Position numbers and translations under genes: made by a program
Shown here: one piece after another, positions 12,253-28,943 of the stretch
How positions within the stretch are numbered: the stretch's first letter is position 1
How the letters are laid out: each line of letters opens with the position of its first letter
NCBI GenBank assembly: GCA_030613055.1
Contig: JAUWMR010000009.1
Span: 1-64,000, forward strand
Length of the DNA stretch: 64,000 nucleotides
Direction of reading: 5' to 3'
Source of the DNA: Desulfobacteraceae bacterium
GTDB taxonomy: Bacteria; Desulfobacterota; DSM-4660; Desulfatiglandales; Desulfatiglandaceae
Notes under the pieces: model-generated
Databases searched by the model: none
What the model was told of the DNA's origin: nothing
Seen by the model: only the letters and a program-made list of their open reading frames with translations

Positions 12253-12284
12253 AGTAAATTAAATAACAGAGGACTAAGATAGAG

Positions 12285-15200
12285 ATGCGAATACCCGAAT
12301 TTTCCGTGCATCGCCCTGTGACGGTGCTGATGTTTATATTAATAATTGTGGTCCTGGGTGCGATTTCCCTTATCCGCCTTCCGATTGAGATCATGCCTGA
12401 CCTCACTTATCCCGTGGCAGCGGTGATCACCAGCTATGAAAGCGCTGCCTCGGAGGATGTGGAAAACCGCGTTACCAAGGTCATTGAAACAGCAGTCAGC
12501 CAGGTCAAGAACGTGAAGACAGTCAATTCCACCTCTATGGAAGGACTTTCCCTTGTTCTGGTAGAATTTGAATGGGGTACGAATATCGACTTTGCGGCCC
12601 AGGACATACGCGACGGGATAGGCATACTGAAAAAATTCCTGCCATCCGAGATCGACGATCCTATAGTCGTCAAGTTCGACCCATCGATGATACCGGTCAT
12701 TGTCTATGGTATCACGGGGAAGAGAGATCTGCGGGACCTTCGCACTCTTATAAAGGATGACATAAAAGACCGCATCGAGATGGTTGACGGCGTGGCAAAC
12801 GCGTTCATTATGGGCGGACGGGAAAGAGAGATACAGGTTCTCATTGATCGTGCCAAGCTCGAATCCCTTGGGATTCCTATTCAGCAAGTAGTTGCCAGGT
12901 TGCGCTACGAGAACCTTAATCTTTCCGGGGGGCATCTTACCCGCGGCCACACGGAATACCTGCTTCGCACTATCGGCGAGTTTGAAAGTCTTCAGGAAAT
13001 CCGGGATACCATTGTATCAGTTCAAAACGGGGCACCGATATATATAAAAGACATAGCTACCGTAAAAGACACCCATAAAGAGATCCGCTGCGACAGCCAT
13101 GTGAACCGGACGAACGGGGTAATGCTTCTCATTATTAAGGAATCCGGCGCCAATACTGCACAGGTTGTTTCCGCCGTGAAGAAGCAGGTCATTGCACTGA
13201 AAAAGGAACTCCCGCCGGACATTAAGTTTTATATCACACTTGATCAGGGTGATCTCACTGAAAAGATTGTTGCCGCCACCGCACAGGATGCCGTGTGGGG
13301 AGGCCTTATAGCCATGATCTTGATTTTGGTAGTGCTGCACAACTGGCGTCCGACTATCACCATAGGGCTTTCCATTCCACTGTCAATCCTGGCTACGTTT
13401 GTTATTATTTATGCCTTTGATTTCACCTTCAACGCGATGACGATGAGTGGGATCGCGCTCGGGGTCGGGATGCTTGTGAGCAACGCCATTATCGTAATCG
13501 AAAATATCTACAGGCATATGGAAGAGAAAAAAGACAGATTCAGGGCTGCTATTGACGGTACAGGTGAGGTGGGGATGGCTATCGCTGCTTCAACATTTAC
13601 AACAATAGCGGTCTTTCTCCCCATGTTTTTTGCAACGGGTATTGCCGGCAAGCTCTCCCGCGGTCTGTCACTTACTGTGGCTGTCTCCCTGTTAGCTTCA
13701 CTTTTTGTCGCCCTCACCCTTGTTCCTATGATGGCCTCTAAGATATTTCGTTTGAAAGACAAGACAAAAAAAGAAGGCATTGGAAAAAAAAGTGAAGAGT
13801 TTATTCGCAAAATTTACGGAAGCTTACTTAGTTGGGCACTTCGAAATCGCTGGAAAGTGACGCTAACGTCATTTGCAATATTTGGAGCGAGCCTTGTGCT
13901 CATCCCTTATGTCGGTAAGGAGTTCATGCCTCCAATTGATACCGGCCTGGTAATCATCAAGGTGGAGATGCCTGTGGGCACGGAACTTGACGAAACAGGC
14001 CACCTGGTTGAACAGATCGAGAACATTATGTCGTCTGAAAAGGAGCTGGATGTCATTGGATCAATTATCGGCGTGGCAGCCGAATCGGAGTTAGGAGCGG
14101 CATTTGGCATGACCAATACCGGTATTAACGAAGCGCAGATCTTCGCCCATGCCGTGGACAAGAACAAGCGAAAGCGCACAACCATGCAGATACAGGAGAG
14201 TATCAGGAAAAGACTTCCCGGGATAAAGGGAATAAAAATAGAATTTATGGACCTTGCGCGGATGATCACAAGCGCCGGTACCGGGCAGATCCCTATTGAG
14301 GTAAAGATCTTTGGGAAAGAAATAGACAAGCTGGGGCAGATGACGGATGCCCTTGCTCTTGACTGTAAAGAAATAAAAGGTCTATACGACGTGGACACCA
14401 CTCTCAGGCGCGGCAAGCCAGAGATTCATTTCAAGATAGATCGTGAAAAAGCCGCAAAGATAGGGCTTTCAGTGGCTCAGGTTGCCTCCACAATTCGCGC
14501 CTCTTTTGAGGGAGAAGTGGCAACTCTATTCCGCACCGCCGGTGATGAGTTTGACCTCAGGGTGAAATATCGTGAGGCCGACAGGATGACCCTAAATAAC
14601 GTCAAGGACATCCTGGTGGCGGCTCCACTCGGCTCACAGCACCGGCTCTCAGACATCGCAAAAATTTCGAAAGGCAAAGGCCCCTCTCGCCTTTTCCGTG
14701 AAAACCAGAAGCGGAAGGCCTCGCTTACCGCCAACTTCAGTGGACGTGATCTGGGCAACATCCTTGCTGACATCAAGACGAAGGTGGCAAAGATAAACTT
14801 TCCCCGGGGCTATTTTGTGGAGTATGGGGGTGAGATAAAGAGAATGCGGGAGACCTTCTTCTCCTTGGGAGCGGCATTCGTGCTCGCCATCCTCCTGGTC
14901 TATATGGTGATGGCGGCACAGTTTGAGTCCCTGCTGCACCCATTTACGGTCATGTTCACTGCGCCTTTAGGACTCATTGGTGTGATCGGAATTTTACTCC
15001 TTACCGGTAACACGCTCTCCATGCCATCTTTGCTGGGCATTATTATCCTGGCCGGGATCGTGGTCAATAACGGCATCGTCCTCGTGGACTATGTCAATCA
15101 GCTCCGTGCCCAAGGCCTGCCAAAAAACGAGGCAATCATACAAGGTAGTATAACCAAGCTCCGTGCTATGCTTCTTACGGCTATAGTCGCCATGCTCGGG

Positions 15201-15395
15201 ATGCTTCCGATGGCCATATCCAAAGGAGTGGGGGCCGAAATGCGTGCCCCTATCGCCCTGTCGGTAATAGGCGGTATGGTGGTCTCTACCTTTCTGATGC
15301 TGGTGATAATCCCAACGCTCTACAGCATTTTTGACGACCTTGGTAAACACACAAAACAGAAGACCAACCAGATGCTCCACGGAAAGGAGGGCTAA
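12285..15395 (+). CDS. RND efflux permease (HAE1/AcrB-type)
   Basis: A 1036-residue inner-membrane transporter with the usual 12-helix, two-half RND plan: MRIPEFSVHRPVTVLMFIL, a large periplasmic domain, the TM2-TM6 block from about residue 335, then a second repeat. AcrB-type pumps carry two acidic residues in TM4 for proton transfer; here that segment reads GMLVSNAIIVIENI, with Ser399-Asn400 where Asp-Asp or Asp-Asn is expected. In TM10 the usual Lys position reads VVNNGIVLV (Asn928-Asn929). The structure otherwise looks complete. It starts 33 bp after the adaptor and ends 50 bp before the next promoter. Substrates are unknown. Confidence 0.93.
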   Translation: MRIPEFSVHRPVTVLMFILIIVVLGAISLIRLPIEIMPDLTYPVAAVITSYESAASEDVENRVTKVIETAVSQVKNVKTVNSTSMEGLSLVLVEFEWGTNIDFAAQDIRDGIGILKKFLPSEIDDPIVVKFDPSMIPVIVYGITGKRDLRDLRTLIKDDIKDRIEMVDGVANAFIMGGREREIQVLIDRAKLESLGIPIQQVVARLRYENLNLSGGHLTRGHTEYLLRTIGEFESLQEIRDTIVSVQNGAPIYIKDIATVKDTHKEIRCDSHVNRTNGVMLLIIKESGANTAQVVSAVKKQVIALKKELPPDIKFYITLDQGDLTEKIVAATAQDAVWGGLIAMILILVVLHNWRPTITIGLSIPLSILATFVIIYAFDFTFNAMTMSGIALGVGMLVSNAIIVIENIYRHMEEKKDRFRAAIDGTGEVGMAIAASTFTTIAVFLPMFFATGIAGKLSRGLSLTVAVSLLASLFVALTLVPMMASKIFRLKDKTKKEGIGKKSEEFIRKIYGSLLSWALRNRWKVTLTSFAIFGASLVLIPYVGKEFMPPIDTGLVIIKVEMPVGTELDETGHLVEQIENIMSSEKELDVIGSIIGVAAESELGAAFGMTNTGINEAQIFAHAVDKNKRKRTTMQIQESIRKRLPGIKGIKIEFMDLARMITSAGTGQIPIEVKIFGKEIDKLGQMTDALALDCKEIKGLYDVDTTLRRGKPEIHFKIDREKAAKIGLSVAQVASTIRASFEGEVATLFRTAGDEFDLRVKYREADRMTLNNVKDILVAAPLGSQHRLSDIAKISKGKGPSRLFRENQKRKASLTANFSGRDLGNILADIKTKVAKINFPRGYFVEYGGEIKRMRETFFSLGAAFVLAILLVYMVMAAQFESLLHPFTVMFTAPLGLIGVIGILLLTGNTLSMPSLLGIIILAGIVVNNGIVLVDYVNQLRAQGLPKNEAIIQGSITKLRAMLLTAIVAMLGMLPMAISKGVGAEMRAPIALSVIGGMVVSTFLMLVIIPTLYSIFDDLGKHTKQKTNQMLHGKEG

Positions 15396-15445
15396 CTTAT
15401 AAATGTATAATATTTCGAGGTACTTGCGATAGCAAACTTTTATTC

Positions 15446-15495
15446 TTGACATCTATTTTTTTGTGATTAATTTAGACTATAAAACGATTTTAGTC
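15446..15495 (+). promoter_or_regulatory. Promoter and TetR operator, copy 2
   Basis: TTGACA (15446-15451) followed by a possible TAATTT -10 (16-bp spacing). A palindrome GACTA, 11 bases, TAGTC at 15475-15495 lies 25 bp before the ATG of the second tetR gene. The copy before the first tetR matches over 20 of 21 positions, and both lie at nearly the same distance from their start codons. The second regulator therefore has its own promoter rather than only reading through from the pump gene. Confidence 0.68.
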
Positions 15496-15519
15496 CAAAA
15501 TAATAACAAGAGGATAACC

Positions 15520-16104
15520 ATGAAACAAGAAAAATTAGAGTCCATCCTGGATACCGCAAAAAAGATGTTTGCGCGTTATGGCCTCCAGAAAACAACACTG
15601 GATGAGGTTGCCCGCATGGCCAGGGTGGCCAAGGCGACCCTTTATAATTATTTCGAGAACAAAGATGAGGTCTATCTGGAGGTCCTTCGCCGTGAAATTG
15701 CTGATGTAATCAAACAAGTATCATTATCTGTTGAGCAGGCGGCATCCCCCGTGGACAAACTCCGCGCCTTTGTACAGGCAAAGTTTCGTTACATGAAGTA
15801 TGCAAGCAACCTCCTGAATCTGGACAGGGAAGGGGTTGATAAATTGCTGCCTAAAACCGCCGAAATACACGACAGCCTTTTCAAAAAGGAGGCGGAGATC
15901 ATTCACTGTATTCTTGATCGGGGTGTAAATGAAGGGGTTTTTAGAATTAAAGATGTTTTTTTGACAGCCCAGGCTATTGGTTACGCCCTGAAGGGGTTCG
16001 AATTAAACTGGCTGGTCCAGGAAAGTGAAGAAAAAATTGAGCAATATCTCGATGAATTGATGAGCATCCTTTTTTACGGCCTTATTCATCGAAAAAGGAG
16101 TTAA
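15520..16104 (+). CDS. TetR-family regulator 2 (downstream of RND pump)
   Basis: A 194-residue TetR protein. The ATG at 15520 was chosen because it matches its paralogue exactly in start position (MKQEKLESILDTAKKMFARY in both) and because an upstream extension would run through the operator. The helix-turn-helix is nearly identical to that of the first regulator, so both should read the same operator; the central ligand region differs, which would let the two respond to different signals. The C-terminal ESEEKIEQYLDELMSILFYG is again nearly identical. Confidence 0.92.
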   Translation: MKQEKLESILDTAKKMFARYGLQKTTLDEVARMARVAKATLYNYFENKDEVYLEVLRREIADVIKQVSLSVEQAASPVDKLRAFVQAKFRYMKYASNLLNLDREGVDKLLPKTAEIHDSLFKKEAEIIHCILDRGVNEGVFRIKDVFLTAQAIGYALKGFELNWLVQESEEKIEQYLDELMSILFYGLIHRKRS

Positions 16105-16179
16105 GTAGTTTATGATCCTTAAGCACGAACAAATAACACAAGGATTTGACAACTCAACTAACAAAAGGAGGGACAAATC

Positions 16180-17322
16180 ATGTCAACAAACAAGATGAAA
16201 GATCGTATTATTGAGGAGTTGAAGAAGGCCAAGGAGGCCGGGCAGGTCACCACGGAGAAGGCATATGATATTGTGAAGGATGCGGTATCTGCTGCCGTGG
16301 CTCAAGCTAAGAGCGGTATTGAGGAACCGCACCCTGTTGTTAAAGACGCCGTATCGGCTGCCGTGGAAGGTTTAAAGGATGCCGGTGCGGATGCAAAAGA
16401 GGCAGTGGAAGGGGCTGTGCGAGGAGCTATCGCCGGTGCTCGTCACCGTGGAGATGAGGCAATTGAGGCCACCCGTGAGGAAATCCGTAAACTCGAGGCC
16501 CGGCTTAAAGATGAGAAGGCCATGTTAGCACAGGAACTCAGGGAAGGTATTGAAGGTGCAAAAGAGGCTGGAGCTGTATTGCCCGAAGAACTCAGAGGAC
16601 GGGTTGAATCTGCTGTAACAGACATCAAACTGAAAAGCACGGAACTATTGGGTTTGACAAAACAAACTGTCAAAGAAGCCGTTAAACAGGCTATCGACTC
16701 CGGCAAAAATGTGAAAGAGATCGTAGCACAGATTGCAAGCAACGCCACTGAAAAGGCCCTAAAGGAAGGCCGGTTCAGCGCGGACAGGGTGAAAGGAATT
16801 GCAGGCAAGGTCATGTCCGGTGCAGTGGAGGCTGCTGAGGAGGCAGGCAAAGAGGTCAAGGATGTTGCGGCCGGTGCATTTGAAGGGGCACAGAAGGGGA
16901 TTGCATCTGCAGTAGAGTCCGTTGGCGATATGACAAAGGCATTTCTCCGTGAGGACCTTGCCAAAACCAAGAAAGACCTTGAGGCAATTGAAGACCTCTT
17001 CATACAGACCACACGTAAAGTGGCAAGGGGTTCCCGGGAAGAGGCTAAGGATGTGTTAAACGACCTTGCTGATCAGACCAAAAGAACGACCTCTGTTTTG
17101 GGAAAAAGGGTTATCAAAGCAACGGAATCAGCCACACAAAGAATGAGGCGAGCTGGAATGGATGCTGCCAAAACGACGGCAGAAGCAACGACTAAGGCCG
17201 CTGATGTCATGGCCACAGAGGCCAGGGAGCTTGGTAAAAGAACTCTTTCTGTAGCCAGAGGAGCTGTCTCCGGAATGTTGAAAGGGGCAAAAAAGGCCTT
17301 TAAAAAGGACAAGGAGGATTAA
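16180..17322 (+). CDS. Ala/Glu/Lys-rich helical repeat protein
   Basis: A 380-residue protein that is almost entirely predicted amphipathic helix, rich in Ala, Glu, Lys and Val, with no signal peptide or membrane segment. The N-terminal part holds two close repeats (KDAVSAAVAQAKSG and KDAVSAAVEGLKDA), followed by EGAVRGAIAGARHR and similar A-x-x-G units. The C-terminus is very basic (KGAKKAFKKDKED). Composition resembles LEA, apolipoprotein-like or phasin-like surface-binding proteins; I cannot name a family with confidence. The start has AGGAGGGA upstream. It lies 75 bp after the second tetR and is immediately followed by the small gene below, so all may be co-transcribed. Confidence 0.7.
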   Translation: MSTNKMKDRIIEELKKAKEAGQVTTEKAYDIVKDAVSAAVAQAKSGIEEPHPVVKDAVSAAVEGLKDAGADAKEAVEGAVRGAIAGARHRGDEAIEATREEIRKLEARLKDEKAMLAQELREGIEGAKEAGAVLPEELRGRVESAVTDIKLKSTELLGLTKQTVKEAVKQAIDSGKNVKEIVAQIASNATEKALKEGRFSADRVKGIAGKVMSGAVEAAEEAGKEVKDVAAGAFEGAQKGIASAVESVGDMTKAFLREDLAKTKKDLEAIEDLFIQTTRKVARGSREEAKDVLNDLADQTKRTTSVLGKRVIKATESATQRMRRAGMDAAKTTAEATTKAADVMATEARELGKRTLSVARGAVSGMLKGAKKAFKKDKED

Positions 17323-17754
17323 ATGCCTAAATCAGAATCCTTTTCACATTTAGAAGAAACACTGGAAAAAGCTCAGGGACTTATGGCAAAGGTCATTGAG
17401 CAAAACAAACAATGGTCGGGAGGAGGCGCCTTTGAAGAGGACATTGCCAAGGCCGGCAACCTCCAGAAAGAGGCCCAAATAGCGTTGGTTGAGGTTTCTG
17501 AGGGTGTTATTCTACACCTGTGTAAATCTATGGATATTAGTGTGAAATCCGCTAATGATAGGTTTGACCAGGCCTATCACATCATGAATCTTATGTATCA
17601 CGACACAAAACAGATCCAAATTTCCTTAGAAAAAGGTGAAAGCCAAACAAAGGATATAAAAAACCTCGAAGTGCATTTGAAGAAGTTTACCAAGCACTGT
17701 GAGGAAACACGGAGCTATCTATTTAATGCAGTAAGCAAAAAAAAGAGAGGATAA
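17323..17754 (+). CDS. Small helical protein of unknown function
   Basis: A 143-residue soluble, mainly helical protein with no recognised motif, signal peptide or membrane segment. It has a heptad-like pattern at the start (SHLEETLEKAQGLMAKVIEQ), a Gly-rich break (WSGGGAFEED), and a C-terminal helix ending KKKRG. It directly abuts the helical repeat protein gene (zero spacing, GGAGG in the preceding codons), so the two are very likely made together and may interact. No function can be given. Confidence 0.7.
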   Translation: MPKSESFSHLEETLEKAQGLMAKVIEQNKQWSGGGAFEEDIAKAGNLQKEAQIALVEVSEGVILHLCKSMDISVKSANDRFDQAYHIMNLMYHDTKQIQISLEKGESQTKDIKNLEVHLKKFTKHCEETRSYLFNAVSKKKRG

Positions 17755-17951
17755 ATACGGGATGAAAAAGATGATTTAACAAATTAGTATCTTTTCGACA
17801 TAAAAAGAATGTATACAAAAATATTGAGTAATGATGCCTTGCATCTAATTAACAGCACAATATTAATTATATGTTCATCAATAGGAGTATTAGATAAGAT
17901 CCTTGAAATCATAGAACAACATATCAAACGAACAGTAAAATGAGGAGAAAC

Positions 17952-18269
17952 ATGTTTGATCTTATCAAAAAAACCATGTTGACAGGGGTAGGGTTAGCGG
18001 CCATGACCAGGGACAAGGTCGAGGAACTGGCTAAGGAATTAACCGAAAAGGGCGAGATGACTGAGAAGGAAGGAAAAGAGCTGGTCGATGAGTTGGTGAA
18101 AAAGTCCGAGAAGGCAAGAAAAGACTTAGAGAAAAGTGTGGAAAAGACGGTTCGTAAGGTACTGAGAAAAATGGATGTGGCCACTAAAAAAGATATTGAC
18201 AGACTTAAAAAAAAGATAAGGCAGCTGGAACAAAAGGATGCCGCAGAAAAAAAAGAGAGGACCCTCTAA
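17952..18269 (+). CDS. Phasin-like protein (polyhydroxyalkanoate-regulator phasin type), copy 1
   Basis: A 105-residue helical protein: a short hydrophobic-amphipathic head (MFDLIKKTMLTGVGLAAMTR) followed by a highly charged coiled coil. This matches the group annotated as 'polyhydroxyalkanoate synthesis regulator phasin'. No PHA synthase is in the window, so a granule role is not shown. The ATG at 17952 is chosen because the copy at 25460 begins at the same residue; GAGGAG precedes it. It abuts the patatin gene with no gap. Central DNA is almost the same as in copy 2, indicating recent duplication or conversion. Confidence 0.8.
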   Translation: MFDLIKKTMLTGVGLAAMTRDKVEELAKELTEKGEMTEKEGKELVDELVKKSEKARKDLEKSVEKTVRKVLRKMDVATKKDIDRLKKKIRQLEQKDAAEKKERTL

Positions 18270-19244
18270 ATGTTTAATATCTTTCGCAAGAAAAAAAGAG
18301 TCCCTTCAGGAAAAGTAGGTCTTGCCCTTGGCAGCGGCTCTGCCCGCGGGTGGGCGCATATCGGGGTGATTCAGGCCCTTTCTGAAGCAGGCATCACTAT
18401 CGATTATATTGCTGGCACCAGCATAGGCGCGCTGGTTGGGGCGGTGCATGCATCCTCCAAGGTTGATACTCTGGCAGATGTTGTGCTCCAATTCGACTGG
18501 AAAAAGGTTGTTTCTTTAATTGATGTGGTATTCCCCAAATCAGGGATGATTGACGGCAACAAGATCGCTGAATTCATCCGCGGTCAGGTGGGAGAAAAAC
18601 TAATCGAAGATCTACCTCTCCCATTTGCCTCAGTATCCACTGATCTTGAGACCGGCAGGGAGGTGGTTATTAAGGAAGGCGATATTATTGAAGCGGTAAG
18701 GGCCAGTATATCTGTGCCAGGTATATTCACACCGGTCAGAATAAATGACATGTTCTTAGTGGATGGCGGTCTGGTCAACCCGGTCCCTGTAAGTGTGGTG
18801 AGGGAAATGGGGGCTGATTTTGTCATAGCGGTCGACCTCAACCATGATATTGTTGGCAAGAAAATAATTAGAAAGAGTTCCATTCCTGATTCCGGCGCAT
18901 TAGATCTGAACACAAAGACCGGTCAAAACTTCCTAAAAAGAAACAAGGTACTGGATGCTTTGAACAAAAAATTCAAGGCCCTGGATCTTCCCGTCTTCTC
19001 CCAGCTAAAACAATGGATGCCTGGAGATTCATCGCCTAATATCTTTCAAGTCATGATGACTTCAATTAATATCATGGAAACTCAAATTACTGTCACACGA
19101 TTGAAAGCCGATCCCCCGGATATCTTGATTCAGCCTAACCTGGGTCATCTCAAATTTCTTGAATTCAATCGCGCCAAAGAGGCCCTTGCCGAGGGATATA
19201 AGGAGACTCAATCACGGATTAATCTATTGCTCGGAAAAGGATAG
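18270..19244 (+). CDS. Patatin-like phospholipase (RssA/NTE type), copy 1
   Basis: A 324-residue lipid acyl hydrolase. The oxyanion-hole loop GSGSARGWAHIG (about residues 21-32), the nucleophile elbow GTSIG (about 50-54) and the catalytic aspartate in DGG (about 166-168) are all present, so it should be active on phospholipids or lysophospholipids. There is no signal peptide; the N-terminus is basic (FRKKKRV). It starts at the base after the phasin-like gene ends and is followed 5 bp later by pgsA. A more diverged second copy lies at 28944-29915 in a similar setting. Confidence 0.9.
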   Translation: MFNIFRKKKRVPSGKVGLALGSGSARGWAHIGVIQALSEAGITIDYIAGTSIGALVGAVHASSKVDTLADVVLQFDWKKVVSLIDVVFPKSGMIDGNKIAEFIRGQVGEKLIEDLPLPFASVSTDLETGREVVIKEGDIIEAVRASISVPGIFTPVRINDMFLVDGGLVNPVPVSVVREMGADFVIAVDLNHDIVGKKIIRKSSIPDSGALDLNTKTGQNFLKRNKVLDALNKKFKALDLPVFSQLKQWMPGDSSPNIFQVMMTSINIMETQITVTRLKADPPDILIQPNLGHLKFLEFNRAKEALAEGYKETQSRINLLLGKG

Positions 19245-19248
19245 AAAC

Positions 19249-19980
19249 ATGCCGAATTTGCTGACTATCTTTCGGGTGATCTTTCTTCCGTTTTTCATCT
19301 ACCTGGTCTTGCAGCCCTCACAGATCAGTCGCATGATCGCTTTTGCGGTGTTTGTTTTTGCATCCCTTACGGATTTATTGGACGGCTATCTTGCCCGTCG
19401 TCTGAATCAAGAAACTGAATTTGGCAAATTCCTGGACCCGCTGGCGGATAAGTGTCTGGTGTTAGGGGCTTTTATTGTCTTTGTTTTTCTTTCTGAGCAA
19501 ATCCAGGTCTGGATGGTCCTCTGCATTTTGGGACGTGACATTATGATCACGAGTTTCCGTTACTTAGCGATTTATCAGGGTTTGAGTTTGCAGACTTCCC
19601 GTCTTGCCAAGGTTAAGACGGCTTTCCAGATGTTCAGTATAATTATTATACTAATAAGTTTTGTGGTACTCACCGTCCCTGAATACAATCTCATCAACCA
19701 GCAGTATCATAGAGCTTTGGAAGCCGGCCTTTCCCACTGGGACATTGCAGGGTCAAATGTCCAGAGATTTCTGCATGGTCAGTATGACAATTTCTTATTC
19801 TGCCTGAGTTCTTTCCTGCCTTACTATCTGATGATATTGACCACAATCATCACGCTTGGCTCCCTTTTGCGCTATCTTTTTACTAATTATAGACTTCTCC
19901 AGGGACCAATTCCTGTGATACGACCCAGGGGTGAAAAAACAGGTGGGAGAGGGTCAGGACGAGGTGGTTTAACGGCATGA
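19249..19980 (+). CDS. pgsA: CDP-diacylglycerol-glycerol-3-phosphate 3-phosphatidyltransferase
   Basis: A 243-residue integral membrane CDP-alcohol phosphatidyltransferase, the first committed step of phosphatidylglycerol synthesis. The family signature D-G-x2-A-R-x8-G-x3-D-x3-D is complete in DGYLARRLNQETEFGKFLDP plus LADK (about residues 44-67). The ATG at 19249 gives the usual MPNLLTIFRV start; an upstream start would lie inside the patatin gene. It is longer than typical PgsA by about 50 residues, with an extra loop after about residue 150 and a basic Arg/Gly-rich tail. Its stop overlaps the next start (ATGA). Confidence 0.88.
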   Translation: MPNLLTIFRVIFLPFFIYLVLQPSQISRMIAFAVFVFASLTDLLDGYLARRLNQETEFGKFLDPLADKCLVLGAFIVFVFLSEQIQVWMVLCILGRDIMITSFRYLAIYQGLSLQTSRLAKVKTAFQMFSIIIILISFVVLTVPEYNLINQQYHRALEAGLSHWDIAGSNVQRFLHGQYDNFLFCLSSFLPYYLMILTTIITLGSLLRYLFTNYRLLQGPIPVIRPRGEKTGGRGSGRGGLTA

Positions 19981-20957
19981 CCCTGATTATCTTTGATATA
20001 CTTTTTTCTTTCACCTTTTTTTCCGTGCTGGGTTGGGTAATTGAGGTAGTCTATCGTTCCACTCGTGACGGGCGCTTTGTAAACCCCGGGCTTTTGAAAG
20101 GCCCTTATCTTATCCTTTATGGAACGGCCGCTCTTATACTCATGGGATCTATCTCACTGATCCATGGGTACAATATATTTATCAAAATCTTGTATTATTT
20201 TTTGATAACAACCGGTCTTGAACTCATTTCCGGTTTGAATGCGCAGCATTTTTTCAATGTTCGGTTATGGGATTATTCTGACCAGCGTTTCCAGTTTAAG
20301 GGTCATATCTGCCTGAAGTTCTCCGTCTACTGGATATTGCTTGCCTTTGCCTTTGAGTACCTTTTACTGCCCTCGTATCAGTCCCTAATAAACCGGCTGC
20401 CTTCATCCGCCATAGTGGGATCCAGCACCCTGCTGTTAGCCCTGATGATTGTGGATTTTGCCATGGCCGTGAGGAGAAAAAGATATCAGGGGAGAGTCGG
20501 GGGTGCAGGTGAAATGGAAGAGGCTTTCTTGAAAATAGCAGGACCGGTTCTTGAATGCCCGGCAGTGGCAAGGCTCTCACAATACAACCACCATAACGGC
20601 AAGACCCGCCTTGATCACGTGAAAGAGGTGGCATGGGTGAGCTTTATTTGGGGCAAACGATTTTCACTCGACTGCCGGGCCATAGTGAGGGGAGCCCTGT
20701 TGCATGATCTTTTTTTTTATGACTGGTTGCGCGAAGGACCAAGGCTTCACGGCTTCAGGCACCATAATATTGCCCTCGAAAATGCCAGGCAGGTAATAGC
20801 GCTAAGGCCAAAAGAGATTGATATTATCAAAAAACATATGTGGCCCTTGACTCTAATACCACCTCGTTATCCTGAATCGTTTATTGTATGCATAGTGGAT
20901 ACATTTTGCTCCCTAACTGATTATATGAGAGCCCGTGGTAAGGATAAAAAAATATGA
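19977..20957 (+). CDS. Fusion of a CmpB-type membrane domain with an HD hydrolase domain
   Basis: A 326-residue protein with two parts. Residues about 1-165 form four or five membrane helices of the 'putative ABC transporter permease' CmpB group (FSVLGWVIEVVYRSTRDGRF, NPGLLKGPYLILYG, WDYSDQRFQFKGHICLKFSV). Residues about 190-320 form a soluble HD domain: H in TRLDHVKEVAW, HD in GALLHDLFFYDW, H in GFRHHNIALENA and D in CIVDTF. It may be a membrane-anchored phosphohydrolase. It overlaps pgsA and the next gene by 4 bp each. Bacterial homologues of the two halves are usually separate as far as I know. Confidence 0.78.
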   Translation: MTLIIFDILFSFTFFSVLGWVIEVVYRSTRDGRFVNPGLLKGPYLILYGTAALILMGSISLIHGYNIFIKILYYFLITTGLELISGLNAQHFFNVRLWDYSDQRFQFKGHICLKFSVYWILLAFAFEYLLLPSYQSLINRLPSSAIVGSSTLLLALMIVDFAMAVRRKRYQGRVGGAGEMEEAFLKIAGPVLECPAVARLSQYNHHNGKTRLDHVKEVAWVSFIWGKRFSLDCRAIVRGALLHDLFFYDWLREGPRLHGFRHHNIALENARQVIALRPKEIDIIKKHMWPLTLIPPRYPESFIVCIVDTFCSLTDYMRARGKDKKI

Positions 20958-23900
20958 AAAAGGCTTATCTATCAGGTGTTGATATTGGTTCTACGACAGC
21001 CAAAGTGGTAATATGTGATGAGGCAGGCAGTGTGATTTTCTCACGCTACCTTCGTCATAAGGCCAGAACCGAGGAAACAGCACAAAAAATTTTCAAGGAA
21101 GCATTACATGAATTGGGTAATATTGAGATTGATCTGGTGGTCACCGGATCTGCAGGCATGGGAACTGCCGAGACCTTCGGGCTTCCGTTTATCCAGGAGG
21201 TTGTGGCCTCTGCCCAGTTCATAAGGAGAAACTATCCTGAAGTAAGGACCTTCATAGAGATTGGCGGTGAGGACTCGAAGATAATATTCTTTGATGACCA
21301 TTTTCGTCCTGACATCAGGATGAACGGCAGTTGTGCGGGGGGCACCGGCGCCTTTATTGATCAAATGGCCCTGCTTTTGGATGTGCCGCTATCTGAATTT
21401 AATGCCCTGGCTGAAAAGGCCGTTTCAATCTATCCTATCGCGTCCCGTTGTGGCGTCTTTGCAAAAACAGACATACAGGCATTGTTGAGTCAGGACGTGT
21501 CAAAAGAGGATATTGCAGCTTCGGTGTTTCATGCTGTGGCCCTTCAGGTATTGAGCGCCCTCTCACGTGGACGAGATATTGAGAACAAGATATTAATTGG
21601 CGGCGGCCCTTTAACATTTTATCCTGCACTGCGTAAGGCATTGATCAATATACTCGGATTAGACGACCCCAATGGTCTGATCATACCGGAAAATCCGCAT
21701 CTCATTCCCGCCATGGGGGCCGCTTTTGCCCGCAATGGGCAGCCACCACACTTAGCCAGGATCAGGGACCTTCTGGCCCTGCCAGGGACAGGTGTCCGTC
21801 AAAAAGCGGGCATGGCAACCAGGAGGCTGCCCCCCCTGTTTGAGACCAGGGCGAAATTTGAGTCGTGGCAGGATGGGCACTCAAAGGACAGGGTGTCCCG
21901 GGTCAGGCTGGCGCAGGTAAAAGACAGGGACCTTTTCTTTGGCATAGATTCAGGCTCCACGACCACCAAACTGGTGATTATTGACGAACAAGGTAGATTT
22001 ATCCTGGGCCATTATGGTCCCAATAAGGGCGATCCTATCGAAGCGGTAAAAGAGGGCCTTTCCCTGTTCAGGCAAAAATTCAAAGAGGCAGGCTTCCGGC
22101 CCCGCATTATCCGTACCGCCGCCACCGGGTATGGTGAAGAACTGATCAGGGCAGCCTTCGGTCTAAATGACGGTGTGGTTGAGACCATGGCACACTACCG
22201 GGCGGCCAGGCGCTTTGATAAAGAGGTATCCTTTATTTTAGACATAGGCGGCCAGGACATGAAAGCGATCCATATCCGCGACCATGCAGTATCGGATATC
22301 CAGGTAAACGAGGCATGCTCATCAGGGTGCGGATCATTCATAGAGACCTTTGCCCGCTCTTTGGGATACGACATCTCCGAATTTGCCGAACTTGCCTGTG
22401 AAAAAAACGCTCCCTTTGACCTGGGAACCAGATGCACCGTTTTTATGAACTCCAAGGTCAAGCAGGCCCTTCGCGAGGGAGCGAGTATCTCCGACATCTC
22501 AGCAGGACTCGCGTATTCGGTCATAAAGAATTCTATTTATAAGGTCCTGAAATTGAGAGACATCCGGAGTCTTGGAGACAGAATAGTCGTCCAGGGGGGA
22601 ACTTTCCGGAACCCGGCAGTATTGCGCGCCTTTGAACTCCTCCTTAATAAAGATGTCATCCGCTCCGATATCCCGGAACTGATGGGGGCATACGGCGCGG
22701 CACTGACTGCCCTTGCCAACCATCGGGAAAGACCTGTCGAATCAAACCGCTTTGATGCCATTGGCGGTCCTGACATAAGTGTTGATTTCACCAAAAAAGA
22801 ACTCAACTGCGGTGGCTGCGAAAACCGGTGCCCCGTGGTAAGACTTACCTTTGCCAATGGAAACCGGTTCTATACGGGCAACCGGTGCGAGCGGTATTTC
22901 AGCAACAGGCCCGAAGCGTCAAACAGGGGAGCTAACCTGATAGCGGAACAGATAGACATCCTGTTTAATCGAAACACTGAGCCTGAAAAGGAATCGATAC
23001 TGACACTGGGTATCCCCCGGTGTCTGAATATGTATGAGAACTTCCCATTCTGGTCCGCTTTCCTGGTGACATGCGGCTTTAGGGTAGTCCTTTCTTCTCC
23101 TTCAGATTCCAGGCTCTTTGAAAAGGGGGCCTCTACAGTGATGTCTGAAAATATCTGCTTTCCGGCAAAGCTGGCCCATGGACATATTTTCGATCTGATG
23201 GAAAAAGGGGTGGACAGGATATTTTATCCCACCGTGGTTCATGAAAAAAGGGAATACACAGGGGTCCTGAACAGCTTCAACTGCCCGGTTGTTACCGGTT
23301 ATCCAGATCTTTTGAAAAGCGCGGTTGACCCAAAACGAAGACAGGGGATACCCCTTGACAATCCGGCGGTCAGCTTCCGTGATAAGGAATTGATGAAAAG
23401 GCAGCTACACCTGTATGTCAGACAATTCGGCGTGGATTACCGGACCGTGGCAAGAGGTGTGGAGACCGGTCTTGCGGCACAGGAGGAATACAAAAAAGAA
23501 CTGGTAAGCAGGGCCCGTGCCATCATAGAAAGGGCGGGAAATAAAGGGCGGATGGTCGTAGTCCTGGCGGGCAGGCCCTACCATATCGACCCTCTCATTA
23601 ACCACGGGGTGCCAGAGCTCTTAGCGGGTCTGGGTGTGGACGTTATCAGCGAAAACGCGGTGCCGGCAGAAAAAAACCAGTCTCTGTCAGACATAAATGT
23701 ACTCACCCAGTGGACCTATGTTAACAGGCTGTATACCGCTGCCAGGTGGGTTTGTAAAAATCGACAGACACAACTGGTACAACTGATTTCTTTTGGATGC
23801 GGTCCGGACGCTGTGTCCGCAGATGAGGTAAAAGAGATCATCAGGGAATCAGGGAAGATATACACCCTGATCAAGATGGATGAGATAGCCAACTTAGGCG

Positions 23901-25387
23901 CTGTCAAGATCAGGTTACGCTCTATGCTGGAGGCGGTAAAGGAAAATCAGAACAGGGCTCAAAAAGTAAAAGAAGATGTCAAGATAGTAAACCGTGTTTT
24001 TATGGCAAAGGACAGGAGGAGGACCCTTATTGCCCCTTATTTTTCTCCTTTCTACTCCCCGCTGGTCCCGGCAGTGTTCAGGCCATTAGGCTACCGGGTA
24101 GATGTGCTGCCGCCTCAGGATAAGTCCTCGGTGGAATTGGGTCTAAAAAATATTAATAACGATATGTGTTACCCTGCTGTCCTTGTGGCAGGGGACATTA
24201 TCAAGGCATTTGAATCCGGCAGGTACGATCCGAAAAACACATCTGTAATCCTGACCCAGACGGGAGGTCAATGCAGGGCCTCCTCCTACGTTTCTCTGAT
24301 CAAAAAAGGGTTGGCTGCTGCGGGCCTGGATAATGTGCCGGTCGTGGCGCTTTCCACTAAAGACATAAACCCCCAGCCCGGATTTATCATCAATGAAAAA
24401 GAATTGGTTAAACGGATGACATTAGGCGTCATTTTCACCGATCCTCTTGCCCAGATGTATCTGGCCACAGTGGCGAGGGAGGAAATGCCGGGGACCTCAA
24501 AGGCATTGCATACCAAATATCTCTCGGAAATGGAGCCAGGCATTGAACTGGCCGATTATCATTATCTCCTTAAAGTACTGGAAAACGCAGTGGCAGATTT
24601 TAATAAGGCTAACATTATCAATCGGCCTGTTCCAAAGATCGGTGTTGTTGGAGAGATATTTGTGAAATATAACTTCTTCTCTAACGCAAATATCATCCAG
24701 TGGTTCTCTGAGCGGGGTGTGGAAGTGACCCTGCCTTACTTGCAGAACTTTTTCACACAGCGGTTTGTTAATGAAACCTTCGATCAAAAGGCATTCTTTA
24801 AGCATTCTATTGTTGACAGCCTTAAACATAAGCTGTTGGATATTTATGTGAGGTATCACCTTTCCCAGATTGACAAAGTCATGCAAGAATTTCGCTTTTA
24901 CAGAAAGCCCTTTGACCTCAAAGACCTGGCTGAGATCACGAGCGAGGTAGTTAGTCTGGCCAACCAGTTTGGTGAGGGGTGGCTCCTTACTGCTGAGATG
25001 ATTGCCATGCTCAATGAAGGGACCGGCAACATTGTCTGCCTCCAGCCATTTGGCTGTATTGCCAACCACATTACGGGAAGGGGTCTTGAGAGAAAACTTA
25101 AGGAGATGTTCCCTCATTTAAACCTGCTTTCTTTAGATATGGATGCCGGAGCAAGTGAGGTAAATATATTAAACAGGCTGCATTTCATGATCGTTGCGGC
25201 AAAAGAGGAGATGGAGTGCGGGACAGAAGTGGCGGCCAGACCCTTAACGGCCCTGCCTTTCTCTGTTCCCCACATTTGGCCGGGATATCTGGCCAGATTT
25301 GACAGTTACGTATCGCCGGAAATAGAAAAATGGAAATCATGGGCATCAGGATTGGGGTTGTGGAAAAAAGACCAAAGCTTGAAATAA
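20954..25387 (+). CDS. Giant acyl-CoA dehydratase activase-related protein (two BcrAD/BadFG ATPase domains plus DUF2229 and dehydratase-like region)
   Basis: A 1477-residue protein. Two ASKHA ATPase domains in tandem (about 5-270, starting GVDIGSTTAK, and about 325-590, starting GIDSGSTTTK) each have the two cysteines that in HgdC-type activators hold a shared [4Fe-4S] cluster: C in GSCAGGTGAF (about 127) and in SRCGVFAKTD; C in EACSSGCGSF (about 455) and in GTRCTVFMNS. A Cys motif CGGCENRC follows (about 618-625), then DUF2229 (ENICFPAKLAHGH) and a 2-hydroxyacyl-CoA-dehydratase-D-like region (NNDMCYPAVLVAGD; QPFGCIANHITGRG). Known activators donate ATP-energised electrons; the partner of this long type is unknown to me. 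It is coupled to CmpB-HD by ATGA. Confidence 0.88.
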   Translation: MKKAYLSGVDIGSTTAKVVICDEAGSVIFSRYLRHKARTEETAQKIFKEALHELGNIEIDLVVTGSAGMGTAETFGLPFIQEVVASAQFIRRNYPEVRTFIEIGGEDSKIIFFDDHFRPDIRMNGSCAGGTGAFIDQMALLLDVPLSEFNALAEKAVSIYPIASRCGVFAKTDIQALLSQDVSKEDIAASVFHAVALQVLSALSRGRDIENKILIGGGPLTFYPALRKALINILGLDDPNGLIIPENPHLIPAMGAAFARNGQPPHLARIRDLLALPGTGVRQKAGMATRRLPPLFETRAKFESWQDGHSKDRVSRVRLAQVKDRDLFFGIDSGSTTTKLVIIDEQGRFILGHYGPNKGDPIEAVKEGLSLFRQKFKEAGFRPRIIRTAATGYGEELIRAAFGLNDGVVETMAHYRAARRFDKEVSFILDIGGQDMKAIHIRDHAVSDIQVNEACSSGCGSFIETFARSLGYDISEFAELACEKNAPFDLGTRCTVFMNSKVKQALREGASISDISAGLAYSVIKNSIYKVLKLRDIRSLGDRIVVQGGTFRNPAVLRAFELLLNKDVIRSDIPELMGAYGAALTALANHRERPVESNRFDAIGGPDISVDFTKKELNCGGCENRCPVVRLTFANGNRFYTGNRCERYFSNRPEASNRGANLIAEQIDILFNRNTEPEKESILTLGIPRCLNMYENFPFWSAFLVTCGFRVVLSSPSDSRLFEKGASTVMSENICFPAKLAHGHIFDLMEKGVDRIFYPTVVHEKREYTGVLNSFNCPVVTGYPDLLKSAVDPKRRQGIPLDNPAVSFRDKELMKRQLHLYVRQFGVDYRTVARGVETGLAAQEEYKKELVSRARAIIERAGNKGRMVVVLAGRPYHIDPLINHGVPELLAGLGVDVISENAVPAEKNQSLSDINVLTQWTYVNRLYTAARWVCKNRQTQLVQLISFGCGPDAVSADEVKEIIRESGKIYTLIKMDEIANLGAVKIRLRSMLEAVKENQNRAQKVKEDVKIVNRVFMAKDRRRTLIAPYFSPFYSPLVPAVFRPLGYRVDVLPPQDKSSVELGLKNINNDMCYPAVLVAGDIIKAFESGRYDPKNTSVILTQTGGQCRASSYVSLIKKGLAAAGLDNVPVVALSTKDINPQPGFIINEKELVKRMTLGVIFTDPLAQMYLATVAREEMPGTSKALHTKYLSEMEPGIELADYHYLLKVLENAVADFNKANIINRPVPKIGVVGEIFVKYNFFSNANIIQWFSERGVEVTLPYLQNFFTQRFVNETFDQKAFFKHSIVDSLKHKLLDIYVRYHLSQIDKVMQEFRFYRKPFDLKDLAEITSEVVSLANQFGEGWLLTAEMIAMLNEGTGNIVCLQPFGCIANHITGRGLERKLKEMFPHLNLLSLDMDAGASEVNILNRLHFMIVAAKEEMECGTEVAARPLTALPFSVPHIWPGYLARFDSYVSPEIEKWKSWASGLGLWKKDQSLK

Positions 25388-25459
25388 ATTGGTCTATAAT
25401 TATTAAATTATTAATAGACAGCATAATCAATGAAATATCACTTTGAAAGGAGGAAAATC

Positions 25460-25762
25460 ATGTTTGAACTTATTAAAAAGACGATGTTGACAGGGGTAGG
25501 GTTGGCTGCCATGACCAGGGACAAGGTCGAGGAACTGGCCAAGGAATTAACGGAAAAGGGCGAGATGACTGAGAAGGAAGGGGAAGAGCTGGTCGATGAG
25601 TTGGTGAAAAAGTCCGAGAAGGCAAGAAAAGACTTAGAGAAAAAGGTGGAAAAGACGGTTCGCAAGGTACTTGAAAAAATGGATATTGCCACCAAGAAAG
25701 ATATTGACAAGATTAAGAAAAGGCTGAAACATCTGGAACAAAAGGAAACAGCGGACAAATAA
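25460..25762 (+). CDS. Phasin-like protein, copy 2
   Basis: A 100-residue near-twin of the protein at 17952. The head reads MFELIKKTMLTGVGLAAMTR and the coiled coil differs at only a few residues, mainly near the C-terminus (KKVEKTVRKVLEKMDIATKK). The ATG at 25460 has AGGAGG upstream. It lies 72 bp after the giant activase gene. Copies of this family often stand next to UbiB/ABC1 kinase genes as I recall, and here such a gene follows, after a 400-bp gap filled by a repeat element. Confidence 0.8.
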   Translation: MFELIKKTMLTGVGLAAMTRDKVEELAKELTEKGEMTEKEGEELVDELVKKSEKARKDLEKKVEKTVRKVLEKMDIATKKDIDKIKKRLKHLEQKETADK

Positions 25763-25903
25763 ATTATTTAAGCCCGTCCTCCCCATCCCTAGACCGGGAC
25801 GGGATCGGGAGGCGCGACTTGTATGGAAAATTCTGCTGTCACTGGTATAATTCGGAAGCGGAAGTTATCAATTTCAATTTTTGTAAGCCAGGTCTGAGCC
25901 AGG

Positions 25904-26108
25904 GATTGAAGATTTAAGTGAGCCTTGTTCAATAGTCAATCTTGACAATCTCGTAAAAAGTCGGGTTTTTCTTGACCTGTCATTCCTGCCCCGCATCAAG
26001 TGCGGGATAAACTACAGCAGGAATCCAGTGATTTCAGATAATTATGGACTCCCGCTTTCGCGGGAGTGACGTGATTTTGACTTTTTACTAAGTCATCAAT
26101 CTTCAATC
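25904..26108. repeat. MITE-like foldback repeat in the gap between phasin-like copy 2 and the UbiB kinase gene
   Basis: The 25763-26163 gap has no gene. Nested inverted repeats occur: GATTGAAGATT (25904-25914) with AATCTTCAATC (26098-26108), and GTAAAAAGTC (25953-25962) with GACTTTTTAC (26079-26088). Between them lie two hairpins, CCGCATCAAGTGCGG and CTCCCGCTTTCGCGGGAG. The inner GTCATTCCTG...GGAGTGAC edges resemble the elements at 28.8, 43.0 and 55.5 kb. It splits what could otherwise be an operon. Confidence 0.65.
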
Positions 26109-26163
26109 GACAATATTCAATTAGTTGTTCCCTGTTTGTTCAGGTTAGGAAAAGGAGGATGAT

Positions 26164-27858
26164 TTGGTAATCCGCAAGATTGGCATTATTGGGCGTACTT
26201 ACCGGCATATCCAGCGCTACCGCCAGATTCTCATGGTACTTTTTAAGTATGGTTTTGGCGACCTGGTGGACACCCTGAAGATAGAACAATACTTAGAGAT
26301 CGGCCTCCAGATGGTCTCCCGCAAACGCAGGGAGAAAATAGAGACGCTCTCCCGAGCGGAGAGGGTGAGGATGGCATTGGAGGAACTCGGACCCACCTTT
26401 GTAAAAATGGGCCAGATCCTCTCCACGCGTCCGGACCTCCTGCCTGTACAGTTCATCACGGAGTTAGGGAAACTGCAGGATCATGTGCCGCCATTTGCCT
26501 ATGACCAGGTGAAAAAAATCATTGAAACAGAACTTGGCGCCCCTGTTGAAGAGATCTTCAAAGATTTTGAGGAAACCCCTTTAGCCTCCGCCTCACTCGG
26601 GCAGGTCCATCGGGCCCGATTTGCCGACGGGGAGGATGTGGTTGTCAAGGTTCAGAGGCCGGACATCCGGAAGACCATTGAAGTGGACATGGAGATCATG
26701 CTGCATATAGCCACACTCACAGAGAGACATCTGGAAGGCTGGGATATCCAGCGTCCTACTAAAATCGTGGAGGAATTTTCCCGCACACTGGAAAAAGAAC
26801 TGGACTACAGACTCGAAGCAGCCCACGTGGAGCGTTTTGCCATGCAGTTCACAAGTGATTCTACCGTTTACGTCCCTAAAATATATCGGGAGGCCACAAC
26901 TACCCGGGTTCTTACCATGGAATATATTAAGGGCATTAAGGGCTCCGATATAGAGAAACTGGAAAAAGAAGGTCTTGACCGGTGCATGCTCGCCAAAACA
27001 GGCTTTGATCTGATTATGAAGCAGGTCTTTGTTCATGGTTTCTTTCACGCCGACCCCCATCCGGGCAATATTTTCATCCTCCCCAATAACGTCATCTGCT
27101 ATCTGGATTTTGGCATGATGGGCCGAATTGGGCGCGATAGCAGGGAGCACTTTGCCGACCTGATCACGAGTATTGTTCGCCGGGATGAATCAAAAGCCAC
27201 AGAGGCCCTGATCAGACTCACTATTTCGGATGAGGAACCTGACCGTAAAACCCTGGAGAGGGATATTGCCGAGTTTATAGACCGGCATTTTTATCGATCG
27301 TTGAAGGAACTGGAACTCGGGAAACTGCTGCACCAGCTCCTTGAGATGGTGGCAAGACATCGCCTCCGCGTTCCACCGGATCAATTTCTTATGATCAAGG
27401 CCCTCAGTACTGCTGAAGGACTTGGCAGGATGCTGGATCCCGATCTCGATGCTGTGGAGCAGGCTGCCCCATTTGTTAAGCGCATTCAGTTGGAAAGGCT
27501 TCATCCCAGGAGAATCGCAGGAGATATGGCGGAATCCGGAGCCGAATTTATTCATTTACTGAGAGAAATCCCTGGCGAGGTCCGCGAAATTCTCAGGCAG
27601 GCCAGGCACGGCAGGGTCAAAATGGAGTTCGAGCATCGCGGCCTTGAACCCATGCTTTCCTCCCATGACCGGATAAGCAACCGGATCGCCTTTGCCATTG
27701 TCCTGGCATCTCTCGTAATCGGCTCCTCTCTTATCGTCCTTTCCGGCATTCCGCCCAAATGGTACGGGATACCGGTTATCGGTCTGGCCGGTTTTTTAAT
27801 TGCCGGCGTAATGGGATTCTGGCTGCTTGTAACGATCCTGAGACGCGGGAGGATGTAA
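26164..27858 (+). CDS. UbiB/ABC1 (AarF) family atypical kinase
   Basis: A 564-residue ABC1/UbiB protein. The KxGQ signature (FVKMGQILSTRPDLLP, about residues 80-95), the A-rich loop ASLGQVHRA, the lysine in VVVKVQRP, FHADPHPGNIFILP and DFG in CYLDFGMMG are present, so nucleotide binding should be intact. Two C-terminal membrane helices follow. Family members affect quinone or isoprenoid lipid handling and are ATPases more than protein kinases. The start is TTG: AGGAGG lies 5 bp upstream, and the ATG at 26159 is out of frame and stops after three codons. Confidence 0.9.
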   Translation: MVIRKIGIIGRTYRHIQRYRQILMVLFKYGFGDLVDTLKIEQYLEIGLQMVSRKRREKIETLSRAERVRMALEELGPTFVKMGQILSTRPDLLPVQFITELGKLQDHVPPFAYDQVKKIIETELGAPVEEIFKDFEETPLASASLGQVHRARFADGEDVVVKVQRPDIRKTIEVDMEIMLHIATLTERHLEGWDIQRPTKIVEEFSRTLEKELDYRLEAAHVERFAMQFTSDSTVYVPKIYREATTTRVLTMEYIKGIKGSDIEKLEKEGLDRCMLAKTGFDLIMKQVFVHGFFHADPHPGNIFILPNNVICYLDFGMMGRIGRDSREHFADLITSIVRRDESKATEALIRLTISDEEPDRKTLERDIAEFIDRHFYRSLKELELGKLLHQLLEMVARHRLRVPPDQFLMIKALSTAEGLGRMLDPDLDAVEQAAPFVKRIQLERLHPRRIAGDMAESGAEFIHLLREIPGEVREILRQARHGRVKMEFEHRGLEPMLSSHDRISNRIAFAIVLASLVIGSSLIVLSGIPPKWYGIPVIGLAGFLIAGVMGFWLLVTILRRGRM

Positions 27859-27883
27859 AAAAAATGTTTAGAAGGAGATTATA

Positions 27884-28759
27884 ATGTCAGCATGGTCCTG
27901 GAAATCAGCGGCAGGGTCCACGATACATGTTGTGCGGAACCTGGCCCTCATCTCTCTGGGCAGCGCGCTTTGTGCCGTGGCAATCAACGGCATCCTGCTT
28001 CCTCACCAGTTTTTTGGCGCGGGCTTTGCCGGAGTATCCCTTGTCATTCATTACCAGTTTCCATCCCTGCCCGTAGCAGCGCTTTATTTCATTCTGAATA
28101 TTCCTGTTTTTTCCCTGGGCTGGATGTATGTAGGTCGCCGCTTTTTCCTTTACAGCATCGGTGGGATGTTGATTTTTACCAGTGCTCTGGCATGGGTCCA
28201 TGTTTCATTGCCTATCCATGATAAAATTCTGAGCGCACTTTTAGCAGGCATCATTGTAGGCGCGGGATCAGGTATCATCTTGAGGTCCCTGGGGTCATCC
28301 GGAGGATTAGACATCCTATCGGTTATTCTCCTGAAACGATTCTCAATCCGCCTGGGCACCACCATCCTTGCTTTCAACACTCTTATACTTGGAGCAGGGG
28401 CTATTCTTTTTTCACTTGACGCGGCTCTTTATACTTTGATTTACATATTTGTCAGTTCCTACATGATAAATTTTGTAGTTATGGGGCTAAGCCAGAGGAA
28501 GGCCGTCTTCATCATCTCACCCCAATGGGAGAAGATCTCCCACGAGATTATGGAGAAAATCCACCGTGGGGTAACGATTATCGGTGGTCGTGGAGGATAC
28601 ACAGATCGGGAGGAGCAAATCCTGTACACTGTCGTCACCTTCAGGGATCTATCACAACTGAAACAACTTGTACGCGGGTTTGACTCCGATGCATTCGTTG
28701 TGGTTACTGACACCCTGGAGGTGATAGGACATCGTATTGGAAACCAGCCTCACTGGTAA
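27884..28759 (+). CDS. YitT family membrane protein
   Basis: A 291-residue protein with five or six membrane helices (DUF161/YitT part, about 15-205; GSALCAVAINGILLPHQFFG and GAGSGIILRSLGSSGGLDIL are family blocks) and a C-terminal soluble DUF2179 domain (VTIIGGRGGYTDREEQILYT). Transport or signalling roles have been proposed but none is firm. AGAAGGAG precedes the ATG. It is 25 bp after the UbiB kinase gene on the same strand, so both are probably co-transcribed. Confidence 0.87.
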   Translation: MSAWSWKSAAGSTIHVVRNLALISLGSALCAVAINGILLPHQFFGAGFAGVSLVIHYQFPSLPVAALYFILNIPVFSLGWMYVGRRFFLYSIGGMLIFTSALAWVHVSLPIHDKILSALLAGIIVGAGSGIILRSLGSSGGLDILSVILLKRFSIRLGTTILAFNTLILGAGAILFSLDAALYTLIYIFVSSYMINFVVMGLSQRKAVFIISPQWEKISHEIMEKIHRGVTIIGGRGGYTDREEQILYTVVTFRDLSQLKQLVRGFDSDAFVVVTDTLEVIGHRIGNQPHW

Positions 28760-28798
28760 AGACATGTAATCCATCTGACATTCACAAAAGCCCTAATA

Positions 28799-28933
28799 TG
28801 AGACCTTTGCAAAATACCGAAATTGTCATTGCGAGCGCAGCGAAGCAATCTCGCTTTTGCAACAAATTAAATGAGATTGCCGCGTCGCTTAGCTCCTCGC
28901 AATGACCCAAAGGGCAAATTTTCAAAGGTCTCA
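28799..28933. repeat. MITE-like palindromic element, 135 bp
   Basis: Terminal inverted repeats TGAGACCTTTG (28799-28809) and CAAAGGTCTCA (28923-28933), and inner inverted GTCATTGCGAG / CTCGCAATGAC, make the whole 135 bp a long imperfect foldback with no coding capacity. It ends 10 bp before the patatin start codon, so the element supplies that gene's leader; a false upstream ATG at 28902 lies within it. Confidence 0.75.
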
Positions 28934-28943
28934 ATATATAACC

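Follow-up and report, generated by a model that had tools for sequence, protein, structure and literature searches.

The closest described systems are the plasmalogen synthase PlsA, encoded by plsA-plsR in Clostridium perfringens and by one gene in Enterococcus, Lactococcus and Bifidobacterium (PMC12838417, PMC9702350), and the glycerol ester reductase Ger of Desulfatibacillum alkenivorans and Thermotoga maritima (PMC11150832, PMC13274423). Relatives of Enterococcus avium within its genus make plasmalogens with a PlsA-type protein (PMC12838417), and when members of the family with two activase domains were expressed in Escherichia coli, they were shown to act as ester reductases (PMC11150832, PMC13274423). 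Two sequential electron reductions, a protonation and a dehydration were proposed to turn the sn-1 ester into a vinyl ether, or into an alkyl ether in the case of Ger (PMC8788747). Here we analyze a stretch of 64,000 nucleotides from a Desulfobacteraceae bacterium (positions 1 to 64,000 of contig JAUWMR010000009.1, assembly GCA_030613055.1; hereafter the window), which contains a five-gene operon ending in a gene for a large reductase of this family. We suggest that the operon is most likely an anaerobic ether-lipid biosynthesis module.

The 1477-amino-acid protein (20954-25387, + strand), which a sequence-only reading of the same DNA had described as a giant activase, is by its sequence a member of the PlsA/Ger family (plasmalogen synthase/glycerol ester reductase). 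It contains two BcrAD_BadFG activase domains, a DUF2229 domain (Pfam, 3e-79), which is followed at some distance by a second, weak DUF2229-like match, and a C-terminal half that has all the cluster-type cysteines, and thus has in a single chain the activase domains and DUF2229 that PlsA/Ger proteins combine in one polypeptide of about 1400 amino acids. Pfam finds the same domain set in the Enterococcus, Clostridium and Bacteroides homologues. In a scan of named genomes the nearest full-length homologues were those of Desulfobulbus rhabdoformis (67% identity) and Desulfosarcina widdelii (66%); full-length identity was 41-48% in Bacteroidota and 39-42% in Bacillota, and 40-48% for the homologues of Enterococcus, Vagococcus, Clostridium and Bacteroides. 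The only PlsA-type protein of E. avium matches at 42% identity over 7-1421. Furthermore, 14 cysteines are kept in every group compared, including CxxCxxxC...C at 619-645, C735, C949, C1072, C1107 and C1368, so the protein has cysteines capable of holding Fe-S clusters. In a quick tree made without bootstrap, the window protein belongs to a Desulfobacterota clade of 16 members (support 100), which lies inside the PlsA family and is adjoined by a mainly Bacteroidota group and then by Bacillota. Another family, about 30% identical and common across the phylum, falls outside the PlsA family. The genome of the window also carries a two-gene homologue of 1026 and 454 amino acids with 28-29% identity to the reductase (L139:5544-9993, that is G000:C97, about 23543-27992), and pairs resembling it in relatives are split by a single in-frame stop.

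Like the single-gene members of the PlsA/PlsR group, the window protein joins both activase domains to DUF2229 and the C-terminal half in a single polypeptide and has the conserved cysteines; it differs from them in an identity of only about 42%, in lying within a multi-gene lipid cluster and in being preceded by a gene for a CmpB membrane domain fused to an HD-fold metal phosphohydrolase domain (CmpB-HD). Ger resembles it as a PlsA homologue with two activase domains from sulfate-reducing bacteria, reported to reduce esters to alkyl ethers, whereas a CmpB-HD partner is not mentioned for Ger in the accessible text (PMC11150832, PMC13274423). Two activase domains have been proposed as what discriminates Ger (PMC13274423), and the window protein has both; however, so do the plasmalogen-clade Enterococcus and Clostridium homologues, and we rejected the domain count as a Ger marker. 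On the sequences compared, the window reductase would fit either PlsA or Ger. By analogy with the family, it would turn the ester bonds of phospholipids into vinyl or alkyl ether bonds by reduction.

The gene for CmpB-HD (19977-20957; Pfam ABC_trans_CmpB PF06541, 6.5e-38) lies directly upstream of the reductase gene in 17 genomes with readable upstream DNA: the window, D. rhabdoformis, D. widdelii, Desulfobulbus Tol-SR, a Syntrophaceae metagenome-assembled genome (MAG) and those we numbered G001, G010, G036 (partial), G070, G074, G289, G164, G149, G210, G436, G086 and G369. Another genome, G251, looks to be of the same species as D. rhabdoformis. CmpB and HD are separate overlapping open reading frames (ORFs) in G001, G070, G074, G289 and G013, the last with CmpB-HD and reductase at two contig ends. 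Among 395 genomes of the phylum, CmpB-HD occurs in 11 of the 13 with this type of reductase as opposed to 10 of the 382 others (Fisher p 3e-14, uncorrected for phylogeny; ten families). Because CmpB-HD is found alone in G097 and G169 and the reductase alone in G264, CmpB-HD is a strong but not an obligate partner. Near Firmicutes PlsA we found CmpB-type or HD proteins at L084, L098 and L103, which, being only three, allow no call on linkage. The reductase gene is patchy within the window's own family, and D. widdelii and D. rhabdoformis resemble each other in cluster layout and have closely related reductases although they belong to different families, which suggests horizontal transfer of the cluster. 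In G018 (L039, G018:C51), all that is left between an intact PgsA and a phasin gene is a short CmpB-HD fragment and the C-terminal ~160 amino acids of the reductase, either through internal deletion or through misassembly.

The two proteins are encoded at the end of a run of five ORFs, all on the + strand and packed with gaps of 0, +4, -4 and -4 bp. The other three are the first gene, for a phasin-like amphipathic protein (17952-18269; Pfam Phasin PF05597, 32.6 bits against a cut-off of 28.8), a patatin-like phospholipase gene (18270-19244; Pfam Patatin 6e-32, with a GTSIG nucleophile motif and DGG in the sequence) and a gene for a PgsA-type CDP-alcohol phosphatidyltransferase (19249-19980; CDP-OH_P_transf 6e-43; TIGR00560, 137.9 bits against a cut-off of 109.1). 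This packing is as the sequence-only reading gave it. Its gene names are each supported by Pfam, with the reservations that the phasin barely exceeds its cut-off and that the HD half is under the Pfam cut-off despite its predicted fold. Linked occurrence, which it had put to a gene-neighborhood survey, extends well beyond one genome. A scan for promoters and terminators found sites no more often than in shuffled sequence and says nothing about separate promoters, so the case for an operon is one of gene spacing and conservation. The recurrence of the CmpB-HD/reductase pair and several neighbors across many families confirms that the five-gene operon is real and beyond chance.

The HD half of CmpB-HD falls below the Pfam HD cut-off, yet its structure predicted with AlphaFold2 is an HD fold. 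Foldseek gave this half a probability of 1.00, yet every match had an E-value of at least 0.001; VIA-align, which covered the HD half only (the CmpB half being predicted at low confidence), gave Z 12.7 to 2pq7 over 130 residues. H214, H243-D244, H287 and D308 are invariant in 10 CmpB-HD orthologues, and since the predicted fold is joined by invariant H214, H243-D244 and D308, the H...HD...D ligands of an HD metal-dependent phosphohydrolase are in place. A search of PDB sequences with CmpB-HD returned no match. By its Pfam score the N-terminal half belongs to PF06541, whose "ABC-transporter" label is a Pfam name only. Here, CmpB either carries an HD domain in the same chain or precedes one, and no partner ABC ATPase was found among the window neighbors scanned with Pfam and NCBIfam; the neighbors in relatives are only partly classified. 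We found no tested function for PF06541 in the literature searched, nor any link of CmpB or CmpB-HD to ether lipids in the open-access literature. Related arrangements include an 802-amino-acid fusion of CmpB-HD with a B12-binding radical SAM protein (L210:169-2577, G238) and a stand-alone HD protein, clearly similar to the HD half, which lies beside PlsA and convergent with it in a Lachnospiraceae MAG (L084:12621-13091).

The PgsA of the operon has the motif DGxxAR...GxxxDxxxD, with DGYLARRLNQETEFGKFLDPLAD visible in the sequence, and is an extra copy, as another PgsA is encoded elsewhere in the genome (G000:C11). PgsA adjoins CmpB-HD at just three loci (window, G018 and G074); it is a local addition, while CmpB-HD, patatin, UbiB, phasin and TetR are the recurring genes. 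A second phasin-like gene (25460-25762, start corrected to 25460; Pfam Phasin 30.1 bits) follows the reductase, so that the two copies, with 86% amino acid and 88% DNA identity, flank the patatin-PgsA-CmpB-HD-reductase block; the pair is a recent duplication, through which the enclosed block could recombine.

The cluster reaches past the five genes, to about 10397-29915. Upstream, all on the + strand, are genes for a FadR-like TetR-family regulator (10397-10987; TetR_N 1.2e-14, with the FadR-like model as best NCBIfam match, below cut-off), an RND efflux periplasmic adaptor (10987-12252; TIGR01730 at 239 bits, over cut-off), an RND transporter permease (12285-15395; assigned by synteny and by best NCBIfam models that are RND permeases, below subfamily cut-offs), a second TetR-family regulator 71% identical to the first (15463-16104) and a DUF6781, apolipoprotein-like amphipathic helical protein (16180-17322; PF20572, 1.3e-18). 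Downstream, on the same strand, are a UbiB/ABC1 (AarF) atypical kinase (26164-27858; ABC1 1.4e-87) and a second patatin-like phospholipase with 63% amino acid identity to the first (28902-29915; Patatin 8e-33). Between these two lies a YitT-family membrane protein (27884-28759), for which we noticed no match near the clade loci.

Counted over 22 loci of the clade besides the window, this neighborhood includes patatin at 10, TetR at 9, UbiB, DUF6781 and LpxR at 5 each, phasin at 4, RND at 3 and PgsA at 2. In contrast, the 70 homologous loci outside the clade, which are of greater mean length, gave a single RND match and a single PgsA match, while patatin, phasin, UbiB, DUF6781, LpxR and any close TetR were absent. 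UbiB is linked in D. widdelii, Desulfobulbus Tol-SR, G013, G018 and G289, and DUF6781 in D. widdelii, Tol-SR, G013, G074 and G079; phasin follows the reductase in G001 and G018; and in D. rhabdoformis and D. widdelii the genes for the RND permease and CmpB-HD share 4 bp. As gene order varies between lineages, these genes form a conserved set rather than a fixed operon. The LpxR-type outer-membrane deacylase of five loci (L043:15815-16870 and others) is a second acyl-removing enzyme besides patatin. A radical SAM protein of 465-487 amino acids, absent from the window, lies between TetR and PgsA/CmpB in three relatives (L131:7720-9159, L133:5398-6861, L039:4059-5456) and could be a lipid-modifying enzyme; as a candidate synthase of membrane-spanning lipids it was rejected, since many radical SAM structures match it and the tetraether synthase Tes does so weakly (8e-4). 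In G074 (L133), a B12 radical SAM gene similar to the G238 fusion partner lies just downstream of TetR.

Orthologues of the first TetR gene of the window lie directly upstream of CmpB-HD in G010, G149, G436, G086, G097 and G169. The Desulfobacterota are mostly strict anaerobes. A TetR regulator beside this type of cluster in their lineages stands against the statement that such a regulator is absent from strict anaerobes, the upstream TetR gene having been reported in facultative ones (PMC9702350). We found no TetR ORF of at least 120 amino acids directly upstream of the E. avium gene on the same strand.

Taken together, the cluster is best read as a TetR-controlled ether-lipid island. By comparison with characterized members of the family, the activase domains would use ATP to drive electrons at low potential by way of [4Fe-4S] clusters to the C-terminal half, where an acyl ester in a phospholipid would be reduced, giving a vinyl or an alkyl ether. 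The second PgsA of the genome may supply phosphatidylglycerol (PG) as the substrate, patatin may remove or recycle the leftover ester acyl chains, phasin and DUF6781 proteins may coat lipid surfaces, and the FadR-like TetR repressors probably control the gene set. CmpB-HD, a putative membrane-bound phosphohydrolase dedicated to this reductase clade, might most plausibly anchor the reductase, and might act on a phospholipid head group or a regulatory nucleotide. It is tempting to go further and see in CmpB-HD a previously undescribed, dedicated ether-lipid component, a membrane phosphohydrolase feeding or gating PlsA/Ger in a mobile Desulfobacterota island equipped with a PG synthase of its own as well as deacylases, lipid-binding proteins and an exporter; this is a tentative proposal, in which we place rather low confidence.

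Several points weigh against the ether-lipid interpretation or its details. For the host, as for every carrier of CmpB-HD, it is drawn from genes, and our comparisons and tree cover homologues such as that of E. avium rather than the validated proteins of D. alkenivorans, T. maritima, C. perfringens and E. faecalis. Vinyl and alkyl ether formation cannot be told apart from sequence (PMC13274423, PMC11868695). PlsA from elsewhere needs no CmpB-HD to be active in E. coli (PMC12838417). G454 has both genes, but they are unlinked, with CmpB-HD beside a TetR gene of its own, and G097 and G169 lack any full-length PlsA-type protein, so CmpB-HD is not strictly tied to the ether-lipid reaction. We also rejected the HD domain as a missing phosphatidylglycerol phosphate phosphatase, as PgpA is present in the genome.

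The reductase might alternatively activate a CoA-substrate enzyme of the 2-hydroxyacyl-CoA dehydratase or benzoyl-CoA reductase type in the degradation of aromatics or amino acids, with the lipid genes incidental. Its activase domains do match TIGR00241, solved dehydratase activators and benzoyl-CoA reductase subunits, and the gene is carried by hydrocarbon or aromatic degraders. However, activators of the HgdC/HadI type are single domains of about 260 amino acids beside a separate dehydratase, whereas here both activase domains, DUF2229 and the C-terminal half are joined in one ORF that matches the sole PlsA-type protein of E. avium over its full length, and its neighbors are consistently lipid genes; we consider this explanation improbable. 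Even less probable is an operon for polyhydroxyalkanoate (PHA) or neutral-lipid granules, coated by phasin and mobilized by patatin, with the reductase as an auxiliary. The two phasin copies, the apolipoprotein-like DUF6781 protein and patatin would suit such granules, but PgsA and PlsA/Ger act on phospholipids, the marginal score of phasin copy 1 lies below the NCBIfam PHA_granule_1 cut-off, and no PHA synthase (PhaC_N) was found in the genome, which is 96% complete and in which the control search worked. The co-occurrence with PHA synthase expected of PHA phasins is thus missing, and the phasins are unlikely to coat PHA. A search for wax-ester/triacylglycerol synthase (WS/DGAT) did not match its own control and is uninformative. 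The sequence-only reading had offered both phospholipid remodeling with a low-potential electron step and a storage-lipid system; the former agrees with a family that reduces phospholipid acyl esters, and the latter is disfavored. Its view that no described pathway uses all five genes is not supported insofar as the central enzyme is described. In the open-access literature, what appears undescribed is the gene setting and the CmpB-HD partner, the core enzyme and pathway being known.

A further idea concerns physiological purpose and is compatible with the ether-lipid module: the island could be a response to solvents or other hydrophobes, in which hydrophobic compounds are detected by TetR and expelled by the RND pump, and ether lipids harden the membrane. 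Consistent with it are the RND adaptor and permease flanked by TetR genes in the window, the overlap of RND with CmpB-HD in D. widdelii, which we take to be an aromatic-hydrocarbon degrader, and in D. rhabdoformis, and the degradation of toluene by Tol-SR (PMC4299903). Nevertheless, RND occurs at so few of the clade loci outside the window, the models leave its subfamily unresolved and the argument is one of gene layout; we therefore regard a stress role as rather unlikely.

The ether-lipid module bears on the question of how anaerobic bacteria make ether lipids and which accessory proteins the oxygen-sensitive reductase needs. Ger expressed alone in E. coli ends largely in inclusion bodies (PMC11150832), and a conserved membrane partner encoded beside the reductase may be relevant to this poor solubility. 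If the module works as we suggest, vinyl or alkyl ethers should be present in the lipids of the cultured carriers D. widdelii and D. rhabdoformis, which would matter where ether lipids of bacteria serve as biomarkers in sediments.

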